Below the pieces are notes generated by a model, which saw only the letters and a list, made by a program, of their open reading frames with translations, was not told where the DNA came from and made no database searches. From an uncultured beta proteobacterium (GTDB lineage Bacteria; Pseudomonadota; Gammaproteobacteria; Burkholderiales; Rhodocyclaceae): 56,170 nucleotides of DNA. The position numbers and the translations under genes were made by a program. Location: contig CAJBYR010000081.1 of the NCBI GenBank assembly GCA_903959855.1, positions 1-56,170 of the forward strand, in the 5' to 3' direction. This document shows, one piece after another, positions 9,258 through 16,268 of this stretch (the first letter of the stretch is position 1; each line of letters opens with the position of its first letter).

Positions 9258-9493
9258 GCCGCGGCAGCACCGGCAGCGTCTGCGTTCATTTCCGCGAACA
9301 ACGCCAGCGTCTTTTCGGCCTCTTCGGGATCGAGTTTGCTCAGTGCGTAGCCCACGTGGAGGATCACATAGTCGCCAACCTGCACGTCGGAGAGCAAGGC
9401 CAGCGAAATCTCTTTCCTGACGCCGCCGAGATCCACAATCGCCGTGTCGTTGGCGCCGACTTCTATTACTTTGACTGGTAATGCAAGGCACAT
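9254..9493 (-). CDS. hypC: Hydrogenase maturation chaperone HypC
   Basis: A 79-residue HypC-family chaperone beginning MCLALPVKVIEV. Cys2 becomes the N-terminal Cys after Met removal and binds HypD and the iron unit; the conserved His is in YVILHVGYAL. The C-terminus is Ala-rich. A strong ribosome-binding site (GGAGG) lies 8 bases upstream. This is one of three hypC-family genes in the window (also hupF and hybG) and is probably the general partner of HypD. A double-palindromic element begins 26 bases upstream of its start codon. Confidence 0.96.
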   Translation of the reverse strand: MCLALPVKVIEVGANDTAIVDLGGVRKEISLALLSDVQVGDYVILHVGYALSKLDPEEAEKTLALFAEMNADAAGAAAA

Positions 9494-9519
9494 CTTACTT
9501 TCCTCCGTGCGCGCCAGTA

Positions 9520-9607
9520 ATGGCAGGTATCCGGCTCCGTCCGTGTCCTCCGTCGCGGGCTTTGCCCGCTCCTCCCCCTTTACCTACCGGACCCGGATAC
9601 CTGCCAT
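9520..9607 (-). repeat. Palindromic element A, unit 1 (minus-sense)
   Basis: Outer arms 9520-9534 and 9593-9607 are a perfect 15-bp inverted repeat. Read on the minus strand, the enclosed core runs GTAAAGGGGGAGGA, a GC hairpin (9555-9560 with 9564-9569), then GACGGAGGACACG. The same core layout recurs in three other units (9661, 14641, 14791) whose outer stems differ in sequence. It lies in the hypF-hypC gap of the operon and is co-transcribed in sense orientation, 26 bases upstream of hypC. I know of no named family that matches. Confidence 0.85.
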
Positions 9608-9660
9608 CACTGACGGGAAACGCCTGCGATTTGCAGCCGCAAACCGGCGACGTCATCAAC

Positions 9661-9768
9661 GGATCGGGATGGTGGGGTATTCCCTGCAGCGAAGTAAAGA
9701 AGGAGGAAGTGCCCGCAGGGCACTGACGGATGACATGAGCGGAGGGGAATACCCCACCGTCCCGATCC
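9661..9768 (+). repeat. Palindromic element A, unit 2 (plus-sense, head-to-head with unit 1)
   Basis: Arms 9661-9683 and 9746-9768 pair over 23 positions with a single imperfection (T9670 against G9759), a G.U pair if transcribed on the plus strand. The core contains AAGTAAAGAAGGAGGAAG, a 7-bp hairpin (9708-9714 with 9718-9724), then GACGGATGACATGAGCG. About 50 bases are identical or nearly so in element B unit 2. It is antisense to the surrounding operon. Confidence 0.85.
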
Positions 9769-9796
9769 CCAGCGAACCTCAAACGAACAAACGGTT

Positions 9797-10915
9797 TCAT
9801 CGGTTTTCCAACGTATGCAAAGCCACCCACGCCTGCCCCAGCGCCAACCCAGCATCGCCGGGCACCAGCCTGACCGGCGCCAGCACACGCAATCCGCGCG
9901 CCTCGCAGTCGCGACGCAGGCCGGTCGCCAGCAGCCGGTTGAAGAAACAGCCGCCACCGAAAACCACGGTACGGATGCCGCTCTCGTCGCAGACGCCCTC
10001 CGCCCACTGCGCCAGCGCCGCCACCAGCGTGGCATGGAACACGGCGGCGCCCCGTGCGGCGTCGGCTTCGCCTGCCAGCCGCCCCAGCAGCGGGCGCAAG
10101 TCGAGCACGCCGCCGGCCAGGGTCCAGCCGCCGGCAACCGGCGCCGGCCAGCCCTTGGCGTCCATCCAGTTTGTCGCCTCCTGCTCCAACCGGATCGCCG
10201 CTTCGGCATCCACGTCCATTTTCAGGCACAGCCCAAGCAGGCCGGAGGCGGCGTCGAACAGCCGGCCGGCACTCGACGTGCGTGGACAGTTCACGCCCTT
10301 TTCCAGCATCGCCAGCACCGTCGCCGCCGCAGGCTCACCGGCGTAGCGTCGCATCACTTCAGCGCCGCGACCGAGGTCGTGCAGCACGGCGGCCGCCATG
10401 CGCCAGGGTTCGCGTGCGGCGCGGTCGCCACCGGGCAATGCCAGCGGCGCGAGATGGCCCAGCCGTTCGAAGCACGCGCCATCGACCCGCAGCAGTTCGC
10501 CGCCCCAAGGCGTGTTGTCGGTGCCGAGGCCGACGCCGTCGAGCGCGAGGCCGATCACCGGGCCACGTTCGCCATGCTCCGCGCACACCGCGGCGATGTG
10601 CGCGTGGTGGTGCTGCACCGGCAGCGCGATGGCGCCCAATTGCGCCGCGATCCCGGCGGCATGGCGCGAGGAATGAAAATCCGGATGCAGGTCATGGGCA
10701 ATCGTGGCCGGGCCATCCAGCCACTCGAGCATGCGCGACACTTCCGCTTCGTGGCCGAGGCAGGCCTCGGGCGTATTGAGGTCGCCGACCACGCGTGACA
10801 TTCGCGCCTCGCCTCCCTTGACGCCGCAAACGGCGTTCTTGAACCAGGCGCCAGCGGCCAGCACCGGCGCGGCACTGGCGAACGACGCCGGCAGCGGAAT
10901 CGCGCCGACGCTCAT
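9797..10915 (-). CDS. hypF: C-terminal-only HypF (carbamoyltransferase domain)
   Basis: Full HypF proteins (~750 residues) have acylphosphatase, zinc-finger, YrdC-like and Kae1-like domains. This one has 372 residues, essentially the C-terminal Kae1-like half: HHHAHIAAV (metal-binding histidines), [31 protein letters not shown], and [12 protein letters not shown] near the end. The ATG at 10915 overlaps the hypB stop in ATGA; the longer reading frame upstream is only hypB shadow. R. eutropha HypF1 is a similarly shortened protein in the same operon position. Without the YrdC-like part it cannot be expected to make carbamoyl-adenylate alone, so a full-length HypF elsewhere in the genome, or another donor, is implied. 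Confidence 0.93.
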
Positions 10916-11841
10916 CGCACCGCGGAGACGAGCGCCGGTGGCGCCTTTTGCTGCGCGGACCGTTGCGCCCCACGCGCGATCCAGTCCAGCCATTGCTCCA
11001 TGCCCTGCCCCGTGGTTGCGGACAACTGGATCACCTCGATGCCGGGGTTGACGCGACGGGCGAATTCGATCGCGGCATCGACCTTGAAGCTCAGGTAGGG
11101 CAGCAGGTCGCACTTGTTGAGCAGCATCAGCGTCGCCGCGCGGAACATGTCCGGGTACTTGATCGGCTTGTCCTCGCCCTCGGTGACCGAGAGGATCACC
11201 ACCTTGTGCACTTCGCCGAGGTCGAAGGCCGCCGGGCAGACCAGGTTGCCGACGTTCTCGATCATCAGCAGGGAATCCTCGGGTAATTCCAGCTTGCCCA
11301 TGGCATGACCGACCATGTGGGCGTCGAGGTGGCAACCCTTGCCGGTGTTGATCTGCACTGCCTTCGCGCCGGTGGCGCGGATGCGTTCGGCATCCTGGTC
11401 GGTCTGCTGGTCGCCCTCGATGACGGCCACCGATGCCTTGCCATTGAGCATGTCGATGGTCTTGCACAGCAACGTAGTCTTGCCCGAACCGGGGCTGGAG
11501 ACCAGGTTCAGCGTGAAGATGCCGCGTTCCGCCAGGCGCTGGCGGTTCTGCTGCGCGTAGGCGTTGTTCTTGGCCAGGATGTCCTGCTCGATCTGCACCA
11601 TGCGTTTGGTGCCGATGCCTGGCGCGTGCGAGTGCGCCGGCGAAGCGTTGGAATGCACGGGCGCATAGCGGTGGCCGGAGTCATGGGTATGAGGATGGGC
11701 ATGGTCATGTCCATGATCACCGTCATGGCCGTGGTCATGGCTGTGGCGCGTGCCGTCGGCATGAACATGTTCGTGCCCGTGGTGGGGATCGTCACCGTCT
11801 ATTTTCACTTCGCCCGCAGCGCAGCCGCATGTCGTACACAT
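10912..11841 (-). CDS. hypB: Hydrogenase nickel-insertion GTPase HypB
   Basis: HypB, 309 residues, is the GTPase that delivers nickel to the large-subunit precursor together with HypA. It begins with MCTTCGC, the high-affinity N-terminal nickel site. A long His/Asp-rich stretch (about residues 18-72) follows, probably for nickel storage or buffering. The G domain starts about residue 110 with P-loop [11 protein letters not shown]; further motifs are [23 protein letters not shown] (internal metal-site Cys) and [10 protein letters not shown]. The start at 11841 is fixed by the CxxCGC motif. It is one of the few genes here with only one copy, so it must serve all four hydrogenases unless paralogs lie elsewhere. 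Confidence 0.97.
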
Positions 11842-14262: not shown

Positions 14263-14592
14263 TCAAGTGGCAGCCGGCCGGAGGAAATCCGGCAGCTGCG
14301 GTTCGCGGTCGATAAGGTCGGCAAAGGCCGCGTGGATCAATTCGTCGTTGTTGCCGCCGCCCTGCAGGATGGACTCCAGCGCCACCAGCGCTTCCTCGAC
14401 CTGGGCAGCGCGCTCGGCATCGATCACTTCGCGCGCGGCACCGAGGAAGCAGAGGACCCACTGCCCCGGCTCGAGGGGGCCGGTGAGCATCGTGTCCATG
14501 CGCTCGATACCGTTGCGGCTTTGGCAAAGGGCCGAAGTTCCCCCCTCGGTGCCTTCCATGCGGATGACTTGCATTGGCAGCGCCAGGCACAT
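14263..14592 (-). CDS. hupF: HypC-family chaperone HupF (HoxL)
   Basis: A 109-residue HypC paralogue beginning MCLALPMQVIRMEG, with a longer insert and tail than HypC (79 residues). In Rhizobium and Ralstonia it escorts the HupL/HoxG precursor and protects the iron centre under O2. The ATG at 14592 follows AGAGGAAG. It lies between hupD and hupG, separated from hupD by palindromic element B, which begins 48 bases upstream of this start. Confidence 0.93.
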   Translation of the reverse strand: MCLALPMQVIRMEGTEGGTSALCQSRNGIERMDTMLTGPLEPGQWVLCFLGAAREVIDAERAAQVEEALVALESILQGGGNNDELIHAAFADLIDREPQLPDFLRPAAT

Positions 14593-14640
14593 CTCAGGGC
14601 TTCCTCTTTGGTTGTGCGTCGTTCTGCGAAGCTTGGCGGG

Positions 14641-14744
14641 GGCCAAGGATGGCGGGCATCCGTCTCCGTCCATGTCCCCCGGGCCGAAAGGACACCGGCC
14701 CTCCTCCTTTACTTACCGGAGACGGATACCCGCCATCCTTGGCC
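14641..14744 (-). repeat. Palindromic element B, unit 1 (minus-sense)
   Basis: Arms 14641-14668 and 14717-14744 form a 28-position stem with one imperfection, which is a U.G pair if read as minus-strand RNA but C.A on the other strand. The minus-strand core reads AAGTAAAGGAGGAG, then a 6-bp GC hairpin, then GGGGGACATGGACGG. The stem sequence is unrelated to that of element A except near GGATACC. It is transcribed in sense within the hup operon, 48 bases upstream of hupF. Confidence 0.85.
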
Positions 14745-14790
14745 GGATACGCTTCTGCCTTGCGACCGTTGCACAGCACCGACATGACAT

Positions 14791-14896
14791 GATCGGGAGG
14801 GCGGGGTGTTCTGCGCAGCGAAGTAAAGAGGGAGGAAGTGCCCGCAGGGCACTGACGGATGACATGAGCGAAGTAGAACGCCCCGGTCTCCCGATC
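14791..14896 (+). repeat. Palindromic element B, unit 2 (plus-sense)
   Basis: Arms 14791-14814 and 14873-14896 pair over 24 positions with four departures. Three are G.U pairs and one is G.G when read as plus-strand RNA; on the other strand the three would be A.C mismatches. The core matches element A unit 2 almost base for base: AAGTAAAGAGGGAGGAAG, the 7-bp hairpin at 14837-14853, then GACGGATGACATGAGCG. The spacer to unit 1 (14745-14790) is weakly similar to the spacer in element A. Confidence 0.85.
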
Positions 14897-14925
14897 CCCC
14901 GCGAACCGAAACCTAGTAACGCTTT

Positions 14926-15549
14926 TCATTCCACCCAACCCCAAACCCGTGAATCGCCAATACGGCTGGCAGCTTCGGCCGAAGGACGCCCCAACTCGTA
15001 AGCAGACATCCCTAACGCCGTGTTGTCAGCGCCGACTTCTGACTCCCGCGCCTCAACGACAAAACCCCAGTCGCGCAATTGCGCCACAGCCATGGCCACG
15101 GCATCATCGAGCCGCGCCTTGACCACCGGGCGCAGGCTGCCGCCGTAGTCCTCGAGTTCTTCGGGCTGGACGCCGATCAGCAGCAGCGATTCCGGCAACT
15201 GCCCGGTGAGGTCGGCAGCGGCGATGACTTCCTGGAAGCCGGTCTGGTGCAGGCTCATCTTCTTGGCGCCCATGAAACGCGGCACCTCGTCGCCCTCGAC
15301 GCGCTTCATGGTGCCCGGTTCAAGGCCGTAGTCGATGGCATCGAACACGATCAGCCGCTTCGCGCCCTGCACGTAAGGCAACAGGTAGAGGCCCTGGGTG
15401 CCGCCGTCCATCACGGTGATGCCATCCGGCACCTGCCATTGGGCCGCCAGATGTTCGACGCAGCGTACGCCAAAGCCCTCGTCGGCCCACAGCAGGTTGC
15501 CGATGCCGAGCACCAGGACGTCGCAACGCGGATCGTCAAATGGATTCAT
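14926..15549 (-). CDS. hupD: HupL-processing endopeptidase HupD (HoxM)
   Basis: A 207-residue nickel-dependent maturation protease that removes the C-terminal peptide of HupL after metal insertion. The family signature GIGNLLWADEGFGVRCVEHL carries the nickel-binding Glu; other conserved parts are DGGTQGLYLLPYVQ with its Asp, and SLHQTGFQEVI with the conserved His. The ATG at 15549 (MNPFDDPRCDVLVLG) is chosen over an upstream ATG that lies in hupC. The last ~35 residues form a tail beyond the usual fold. It starts 8 bases after hupC. Confidence 0.95.
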   Translation of the reverse strand: MNPFDDPRCDVLVLGIGNLLWADEGFGVRCVEHLAAQWQVPDGITVMDGGTQGLYLLPYVQGAKRLIVFDAIDYGLEPGTMKRVEGDEVPRFMGAKKMSLHQTGFQEVIAAADLTGQLPESLLLIGVQPEELEDYGGSLRPVVKARLDDAVAMAVAQLRDWGFVVEARESEVGADNTALGMSAYELGRPSAEAASRIGDSRVWGWVE

Positions 15550-15557
15550 TCGCGCAC

Positions 15558-16268
15558 CTATTCCCGAAATGTCCGCTGACCGCTGATCATGGTGCTGATC
15601 ATGGTCTGGCGACTCATGATGTCCTCGCGCACCGCGGCATAGACATGCAGTATGACGAAGCAGACGATGCCCCACATGCCCAGGTGGTGCCAGCTATGGA
15701 CTGCCTGGCTGCCGCCGAAGAGCGGAATCACCCAGCCGAACAGCAGGTCCTGCCAACTGCCCAGCCCCGCCCCCTCGCTGTAGAGCGCGAAACCGGTGCA
15801 GATCATCAGCACGGCGGCCACGGTGACGAAGATGAACATGAACAGGTGGCCCATCGGGTTGTGCCCGACATACTTGTAGGGCTGCCGCTCCAGGAACAGG
15901 TACCAGCGCAGCTCGCGCAGCAAGCCAGCCCACCACTTCGGATTCGTGATCGGCAGGTAGAACAGTTCCCGGGCGTGATGGTTGCCGACCACCGCCCAAT
16001 AGATGCGCACCAGGAAGCCGATGGTAAAGATATAAGCGGCGGCGAAATGGGCGAAGCGGATATAGCCCATCAGGAACTGGTCGGAGGCCTCGCCCGGCGT
16101 GCTGGGCAGGGGACTCGCGATCAGGTAGCCGCTGGTGGCCAGCACCAGGATGCACAGGGTATTGATCCAGTGCCACAAGCGCACCGGGGCTTCATAGACA
16201 TACACTGTCCGACCGGCGGCAGTTTCCGGATTGTTGTCGAGTTCGGCGGCGGCGGCGTTAAGGTCCAT
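15558..16268 (-). CDS. hupC: Ni/Fe-hydrogenase cytochrome b subunit
   Basis: A 236-residue di-heme cytochrome b (HupC/HyaC/HoxZ) that anchors HupSL at the periplasmic face and passes electrons to the quinone pool. Four membrane segments are visible, roughly at residues 30-55, 65-90, 135-160 and 185-215. Candidate heme-ligand histidines are WHWINTLC, FAHFAAAYIF and WHHLGMWG. It starts 20 bases after hupL and ends 8 bases before hupD. Together with HupS and HupL it completes the respiratory uptake enzyme. Confidence 0.95.
   Translation of the reverse strand: MDLNAAAAELDNNPETAAGRTVYVYEAPVRLWHWINTLCILVLATSGYLIASPLPSTPGEASDQFLMGYIRFAHFAAAYIFTIGFLVRIYWAVVGNHHARELFYLPITNPKWWAGLLRELRWYLFLERQPYKYVGHNPMGHLFMFIFVTVAAVLMICTGFALYSEGAGLGSWQDLLFGWVIPLFGGSQAVHSWHHLGMWGIVCFVILHVYAAVREDIMSRQTMISTMISGQRTFRE

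Follow-up and report, generated by a model that had tools for sequence, protein, structure and literature searches.

What is the paired-hairpin sequence that separates the hydrogenase maturation genes hypF and hypC in an uncultured beta proteobacterium of the Rhodocyclaceae, and how can it lie directly at the start of a gene within an operon? We analyzed the 56,170-nucleotide (nt) stretch that carries it (CAJBYR010000081.1 of assembly GCA_903959855.1; hereafter the window), which is one contig of a 4.26-Mb genome. The element is a short dispersed repeat of about 300 to 380 bp, and the window holds two copies of it. We give a probability of roughly 0.7 to the reading that it is a mobile or once-mobile repeat, similar to the mycobacterial repeat MIRU, that is transparent to translation and has a core unmatched to any known family. 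A selfish repeat would be expected to fare worst at sites such as start codons within operons, and the family described here suggests how one can persist there, by keeping the path of the ribosome open.

Two copies of the element in the window

The presence of a paired hairpin element in the window is confirmed. The sequence-only reading had placed a double-palindromic element of two head-to-head units at 9520..9777, between hypF and hypC. The units are there, but the functional borders lie outside these limits, with a bridging open frame that spans 9800 to 9495. A second element said to share the core was located where it had been claimed (14641-14896), but its outer stems are diverged relatives of those of copy 1, not unrelated sequences (75% identity across 235 nt). 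In both copies the minus strand carries unit B and the plus strand unit A, their 5′ ends facing each other. The features are listed here, with the bit scores of the covariance model described in the next section.

9494..9800, minus strand: whole element, copy 1, reaching from the start codon that overlaps the stop of hypF to the last base ahead of the hypC start, a layout common to other copies
9800 to 9495, minus strand: bridging open frame of copy 1, 101 codons, followed by TAA, one base and then the hypC ATG
9512..9615, minus strand: unit B of copy 1, arms 9588-9615 and 9512-9539, core 9542-9583, 101.9 bits
9661..9768, plus strand: unit A of copy 1, arms 9661-9684 and 9745-9768, core 9694-9737, 107.4 bits
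9616..9660, strand unassigned: spacer between the units of copy 1, promoter-like site absent
14593..14929, minus strand: whole element, copy 2, with a frame from 14929 to 14594 (111 codons), TGA, one base and then the ATG of the second hypC
14641..14744, minus strand: unit B of copy 2, core 14671-14712, 102.1 bits
14791..14896, plus strand: unit A of copy 2, core 14823-14866, 101.2 bits
9254..9493, minus strand: hypC (HupF_HypC), downstream of copy 1
9797..11467, minus strand: C-terminal part of hypF, upstream of copy 1, its TGA stop overlapping the ATG of the bridging frame
14263..14592, minus strand: second hypC-like gene, downstream of copy 2
14926..15675, minus strand: gene for a HyaD/HupD-type hydrogenase maturation protease, upstream of copy 2

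Across both copies the arms are 86 to 96% complementary: 89% (9512-9539 with 9588-9615) and 96% (9661-9684 with 9745-9768) in copy 1, and 96% (14641-14668 with 14717-14744) and 86% (14791-14812 with 14875-14896) in copy 2. The folding of all four units surpassed that of their shuffled versions, with z values of −6.5 to −7.8 and none of 200 shuffles equaling any unit. GTAAAG is present in all four; the full core pattern has three matches in the window, versus 0.00 expected, and the fourth unit differs in its spacing. The earlier statement that no named RNA family could be recognized held, as Rfam 15 gave no match at the gathering score in the window and only matches below the cutoff in 9450-9850. 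Neither a sigma-70-like promoter nor a terminator-like site was found in 9450-9850. The hypF frame at 9797-11467 covers only positions 381-739 of the 741 in the HypF model, the N-terminal half being unmatched in the frame.

A conserved core within covarying stems

A conserved internal loop separates the long outer stem of each unit from its small apical hairpin. The loop reads GTAAAG-NN-GGAG on its 5′ side and CGG-NN-GACATG on its 3′ side. A structural alignment and a covariance model were made from 55 diverse units that had been collected via the core, not via the stems. On this alignment RNAalifold gave 33 consensus pairs, 30 of them changed on both sides. Paired cells amounted to 95.0%, compared with 66.6% after shuffling and 35 to 46% after sliding, and the covariation score was 0.758 versus 0.218. 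This strong compensatory change bears out the proposal of a conserved core with diverged but still paired stems, and covariation, for which a check of the stems had been suggested, is present.

Positions within the internal loop of the core are also coupled, almost without exception in two cases. The base before GTAAAG goes with the variable base of ACA(T/C)G (A/T in 220 units and G/C in 40), and the base after GTAAAG goes with the base before GACATG (G/G in 197, A/T in 61 and other combinations in 2); both were counted over 260 distinct units that also passed a stem check, which are kin by descent and do not represent 260 independent events. The second coupling does not follow a Watson-Crick exchange, a hint of a three-dimensional motif. 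Head-to-head pairs numbered 45 among 113 units, and in 34 of these 45 the cores were 111 or 112 nt apart.

Each unit favors its own strand

In the outer stems of 111 distinct units there were 206 G·T pairs and 11 A·C pairs. On the model-fitted alignment the numbers were 99 versus 5 for A units and 75 versus 3 for B units. A cruciform in double-stranded DNA would give no preference between G·T and A·C. A mutation bias linked to transcription would act in favor of one genomic strand, but the preference of A is for one strand and that of B for the other, in each case the strand of the unit itself. We conclude from these comparisons that each unit is selected as a single strand with its own polarity. 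The asymmetry is a sharp clue toward a putative recombination enzyme.

The same counts bear on the idea that the palindromes are kept perfect, without selection, by template-switch correction during replication. Whole stems do differ among copies at one site and still pair, as this idea would have it, but symmetric correction or mutation predicts equal numbers of G·T and A·C pairs left over on either strand, not the imbalance seen in both unit types on opposite strands; we regard it as extremely unlikely.

The sequence-only reading had taken the conserved core and diverged stems as the mark of a structured RNA. The conserved core, the covarying stems and the coupled core positions all stand. 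A single RNA does not: with A and B on opposite strands, each with its own-strand wobble asymmetry, one structured mRNA element is not sufficient. A rival explanation is that unit B folds in the mRNA as a cis-acting operon RNA that regulates the downstream gene, with unit A as its antisense partner. Stem covariation and the core couplings are consistent with this, as is the orientation bias described below, by which B lies in sense upstream of starts. An mRNA leaves the asymmetry of unit A on the antisense strand unexplained, however; the window copy lacks a promoter-like site, the downstream genes (such as hypC, ureC and fadB) are unrelated in kind, and the copies are dispersed, with empty sites in existence. 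On balance we consider such a regulatory RNA unlikely.

An open frame across stop-start junctions

In most Rhodocyclaceae copies the stop codon of the upstream gene adjoins or overlaps with a start codon, as in TGANATG, TAGGATG or ATGA, and the element that follows often begins with AAAC. At its other end there is often a GGAG-type site and then, once more, TGANATG or ATGA, where the downstream gene starts. A frame from the first start crosses the element, mostly with 101 to 127 codons. The layout in full (a stop upstream, a start, an open frame, and a stop near the next start) was present in 54 of 73 non-edge records in B sense; this count covers 87 distinct pairs, related copies included, after the f13 and f49 loci and the Burkholderiales records had been left out. 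In A sense it was present in 10 of 93 non-edge records, and ten pairs were labeled A-sense in both orientations, some of these ten by mislabeling. Of the 62 B-sense frames that run through, 33 have TGANATG at their end and 19 finish with an ATGA overlap. The full layout is also present in L050 (titled uncultured beta proteobacterium) and L053 (titled Gammaproteobacteria bacterium).

An earlier count, in which each pair was read both ways, parsed 39 of 118 orientation records; frame 0 was open in 36 (including L031+, a reverse orientation), frame 1 in none and frame 2 in 5. The three records stopped in frame 0 were L024+, also a reverse orientation, and L041 and L109, which we judged to have been read from the wrong start and which are open from ATG; in L132 the first frame-0 stop is 17 nt beyond the start taken. 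The start-to-start length is 1 or 2 modulo 3, except in the reverse record L031+ and in L041 (judged misparsed). A relative, G211, gave 17 parsed rows out of 47, with frame 0 open in 15, frame 1 in none and frame 2 in 12; the rows not open in frame 0 (L267 and L276) were judged misparsed. By our reading, frame 1 is closed by the TAA within the near-invariant GTAAAG of unit B.

Copies and clades differ in the frame that they use, so the peptide itself is not conserved. A conserved protein was accordingly rejected as an explanation of the bridging frame; both frames in the window are without a Pfam or NCBIfam match. We infer that the property under selection is the passage of ribosomes across the element. 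Gene finders may be expected to annotate such bridging frames as hypothetical proteins.

The suggestion that GGAGGA in the core is a ribosome-binding site held within the structure found no support. In unit A the motif is antisense, in unit B it lies within the crossing frame, and many copies have a separate GGAG-type site before the next start.

The open frame also bears on the possibility that the element is a bidirectional terminator or a stabilizer of mRNA 3′ ends, with the operon copies as side effects. This is weakly favored by four Burkholderiales loci (L019, L046, L206 and L210) in which long frames end toward the element from both sides, as with convergent genes, a pattern that the same script also reported for the stop-start copies L053 and L226. 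But the window copy has no terminator-like site, a terminator inside the hyp, ure and fad operons would presumably be costly, and the open frame is left unexplained. We think this function improbable.

Occupied and empty junctions

The sites checked in the source genome were the junctions of thiolase with enoyl-CoA hydratase-3-hydroxyacyl-CoA dehydrogenase (fadA-fadB) and of urease beta with alpha, plus the two hydrogenase sites. At the fadA-fadB junction, whose gene types were confirmed for the source genome, 8 of 16 loci were filled and 5 were cleanly empty (L153, L155, L157, L159 and L160). The empty junctions read TGACATG, TGAAATG or TGAACATG, with fadB following directly. In the remaining loci, L156 ends before fadB, L162 has a longer gap, and L161 was unparsed. 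In the eight filled loci the old start codon persists as ATG (five) or GTG (three). Ten sequence-distinct copies at this junction measure 341 to 358 nt from start to start, and in all ten the frame stops no more than 6 nt from the fadB start. The last thiolase codon is GTT in all eight filled loci (in one followed by TAG), GTC in all five clean empty loci, and GTT in L162; this difference could be a trace of the insertion step or of descent alone.

At the hypF-hypC junction 10 of 20 loci were readable, the window's own locus being among those unread. Two (L181 and L182) are filled as in the window. Six (L179, L180, L186, L188, L192 and L193) have hypC 1 to 3 nt past the hypF stop; the core matches flagged in L180, L188 and L192 sit beyond the junction. 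L196 has a longer gap and lacks the element.

A TGANATG-like motif flanks the element on both sides. In the main G211 subfamily the bases before the start are TGAA on the left in 15 of 22 cases and TGAC on the right in 13 of 21. In 42 of 154 A units and in 20 of 110 B units the exact word GTTTCAT lies 40 to 85 nt to the 3′ side of the core, versus 0 and 0 in the control. Most copies are without the exact word, and it resembles a terminal inverted repeat that has become worn. At right ends in G211 (for example in L264, L267 and L281), GCGTCGCGGAAGACGC lies between GTTTCAT and the next start, followed by a GGAG-type site, and this sequence could form a small third hairpin.

Distribution among genomes

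Of 24 covariance-model matches in the source genome, 20 are strong, forming 8 pairs and 4 singles; the other four are weak and repeat, on the opposite strand, units that are among the 20. The alignment of one single unit, L008, shows a partner with an enlarged hairpin. Within the genus the element was found in 14 of 25 genomes (source included), with 0 to 21 matches each; several of the 25 are incomplete, and one single-contig genome has just one pair. In the order there were matches in at least 18 of 399 genomes and at least 10 of 159 genera, with the best nine candidates per genome scored, so that copy numbers are minima. In the class, with the best eleven candidates per genome scored, there were matches in at least 4 of 321 genomes, two of them outside the order. 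G211, whose genome is 99% complete, has 110 matches. A scan of named genomes for the exact core gave 54 stretches, mainly from Sulfuritalea, other Rhodocyclales and Burkholderiales.

The exact core pattern had no match in viral contigs, and blastn against phages gave none. Carriage by phages, plasmids or viruses was rejected, the sole plasmid match being 22 bases with an E value of 0.8, as expected by chance.

A second, unrelated repeat family occupies the hypF-hypC junction of G022 (L190:2400-2594). It was found in 16 of the 25 genomes searched, all of the same genus, with up to 35 matches per genome (loci L293-L322, 30 in all, with L309 and L313 cut by a contig end). Where the match is at least 160 nt, 13 of 14 loci lie across a stop-start junction, mostly ATGA, and have a frame of 61 to 72 codons, in either orientation; among shorter matches 4 of 14 testable loci do so. 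In some units (L008 in contig C259 of the source genome, L035:19-181 and G023:C81:4039-4201) the apical hairpin is greatly lengthened and includes second-family sequence, an arrangement that resembles one repeat lying inside the other.

Weighing the mobile-repeat reading

Under the reading of a MIRU-like repeat, ribosomes from the upstream gene would translate the element's meaningless peptide through the open frame, which would keep translational coupling. They would then stop and restart on the downstream gene from a ribosome-binding site near the right end of the element. A recombinase or transposase acting in trans would read each unit as a folded single strand, with single-stranded DNA more likely than RNA. 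The repeats offer a natural test bed for the importance of translational coupling to hypC, ureC and fadB.

Several results weigh against this reading. At one junction in different genomes, the stems of unit B can be entirely unlike each other, which implies replacement or repeated insertion and leaves the orthology of the copies uncertain; it also blurs the comparison of compensatory change at orthologous sites, where unit B stems are sometimes unrelated. No clean target-site duplication emerges: of 16 copies of the main G211 subfamily that were read on both sides, 3 have the same four bases before the start at each end. The copies in the source genome differ from one another, so that recent movement there is without support. 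Nineteen of the 73 non-edge B-sense records are without the full layout, some owing to parsing, and in G211 frame 2 is likewise open in 12 of the 17 parsed rows, with the other 30 of 47 unparsed. Outside Rhodocyclaceae the units examined are mostly in other intergenic places and at other spacings; two f49 loci (L207 and L215) come near the stop-start layout, with frames ending 10 and 16 nt beyond the start. With the stop-start habit mostly missing there, the frame does not characterize the repeat family as a whole, and the habit seems confined to a single branch of it. Finally, none of 34 loci of Y1 transposases, the RAYT and IS200 type (about 2 to 3 kb each, some overlapping), carries a unit, and G211, with the most units, has no match to Y1, the sole transposase type searched genome-wide.

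These Y1 results also count against a repetitive extragenic palindromic (REP) repeat or bacterial interspersed mosaic element (BIME) moved by a REP-associated tyrosine transposase (RAYT; Y1 HUH). The inverted pairs of units, the fixed motif 5′ of a hairpin, the strand-specific single-strand structure and the chromosomal location of the copies would all suit such a repeat. RAYT was nevertheless rejected as the mobilizer, and this explanation is very unlikely: in addition to the 34 loci and G211, genomes G001, G006 and G011 (83 to 90% complete) have units but no Y1 match. Copies with cargo between the units (L013/L246 and L245) were considered as candidate autonomous forms. The two split pairs in G211 enclose, in one case, a Fic-domain gene and, in the other, a CopG-type antitoxin gene with an unmatched frame, and no transposase was recognized in this cargo.

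A bolder reading, which we put forward as possible rather than probable, is that the element represents a new class of mobile repeat. It would have a strand-specific nucleic-acid motif with noncanonical coupled positions, would be recognized by a putative enzyme, and would colonize the stop-start junctions of operons while staying translatable itself, as at least two unrelated families in one genus would have done independently.

Comparison with known repeats

REP sequences and BIMEs resemble the element in their inverted pairs of structured units and their chromosomal dispersal. The REP-RAYT system differs in that the units here measure about 110 nt and their internal loop is long, and the Y1 transposase is unlinked. 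REP sequences have a GTAG foot on a hairpin of about 20 to 40 nt, whereas the window units read GTAAAG inside units of about 110 nt (counts of this foot over the whole collection are biased by the search pattern). Prokaryotic miniature inverted-repeat transposable elements (MITEs) are likewise small and free of a transposase, and GTTTCAT may be a counterpart of their inverted ends in a minority of copies; they differ in that a parent transposase was not found here, with only Y1 searched genome-wide, and no target-site duplication was demonstrated. We know of no described case of a stop-start repeat with an open frame outside mycobacteria, and a literature search gave no paper that we recognized as describing the element.

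The Beta-proteobacterial repeat element (BRE) is described as 75 to 91 bp long in Bordetella and often tandem, with Bordetella, Polaromonas, Delftia and others listed as hosts (PMC3110155). Both it and the element here are GC-rich, chromosomal, usually intergenic, suspected to be mobile, and found in Betaproteobacteria. By this description BRE would be distinct, being 75 to 91 bp and often tandem, in contrast to head-to-head units of which 34 of 45 pairs are spaced at 111 or 112 nt; Bordetella, Polaromonas and Delftia appear in the titles of none of the 54 exact-core stretches. Rickettsia palindromic elements are described as in-frame fusions within genes that code for a conserved peptide (PMC10969869). 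On that description they are likewise translatable palindromic repeats, but the frame here bridges two genes and differs among copies.

MIRU appears to be the nearest known case by behavior. Its insertions are reported to fall at start codons and to have a coupled frame (PMC12548453). The element here is like it in its start or stop-start siting, with the B-sense layout in 54 of 73 records and the coupling itself inferred. The two differ in host, MIRU being mycobacterial and thus of another phylum, while the named hosts here are mainly Betaproteobacteria. The element would also stand apart from MIRU in its length of about 300 to 380 bp, its two inverted structured units and its conserved core.
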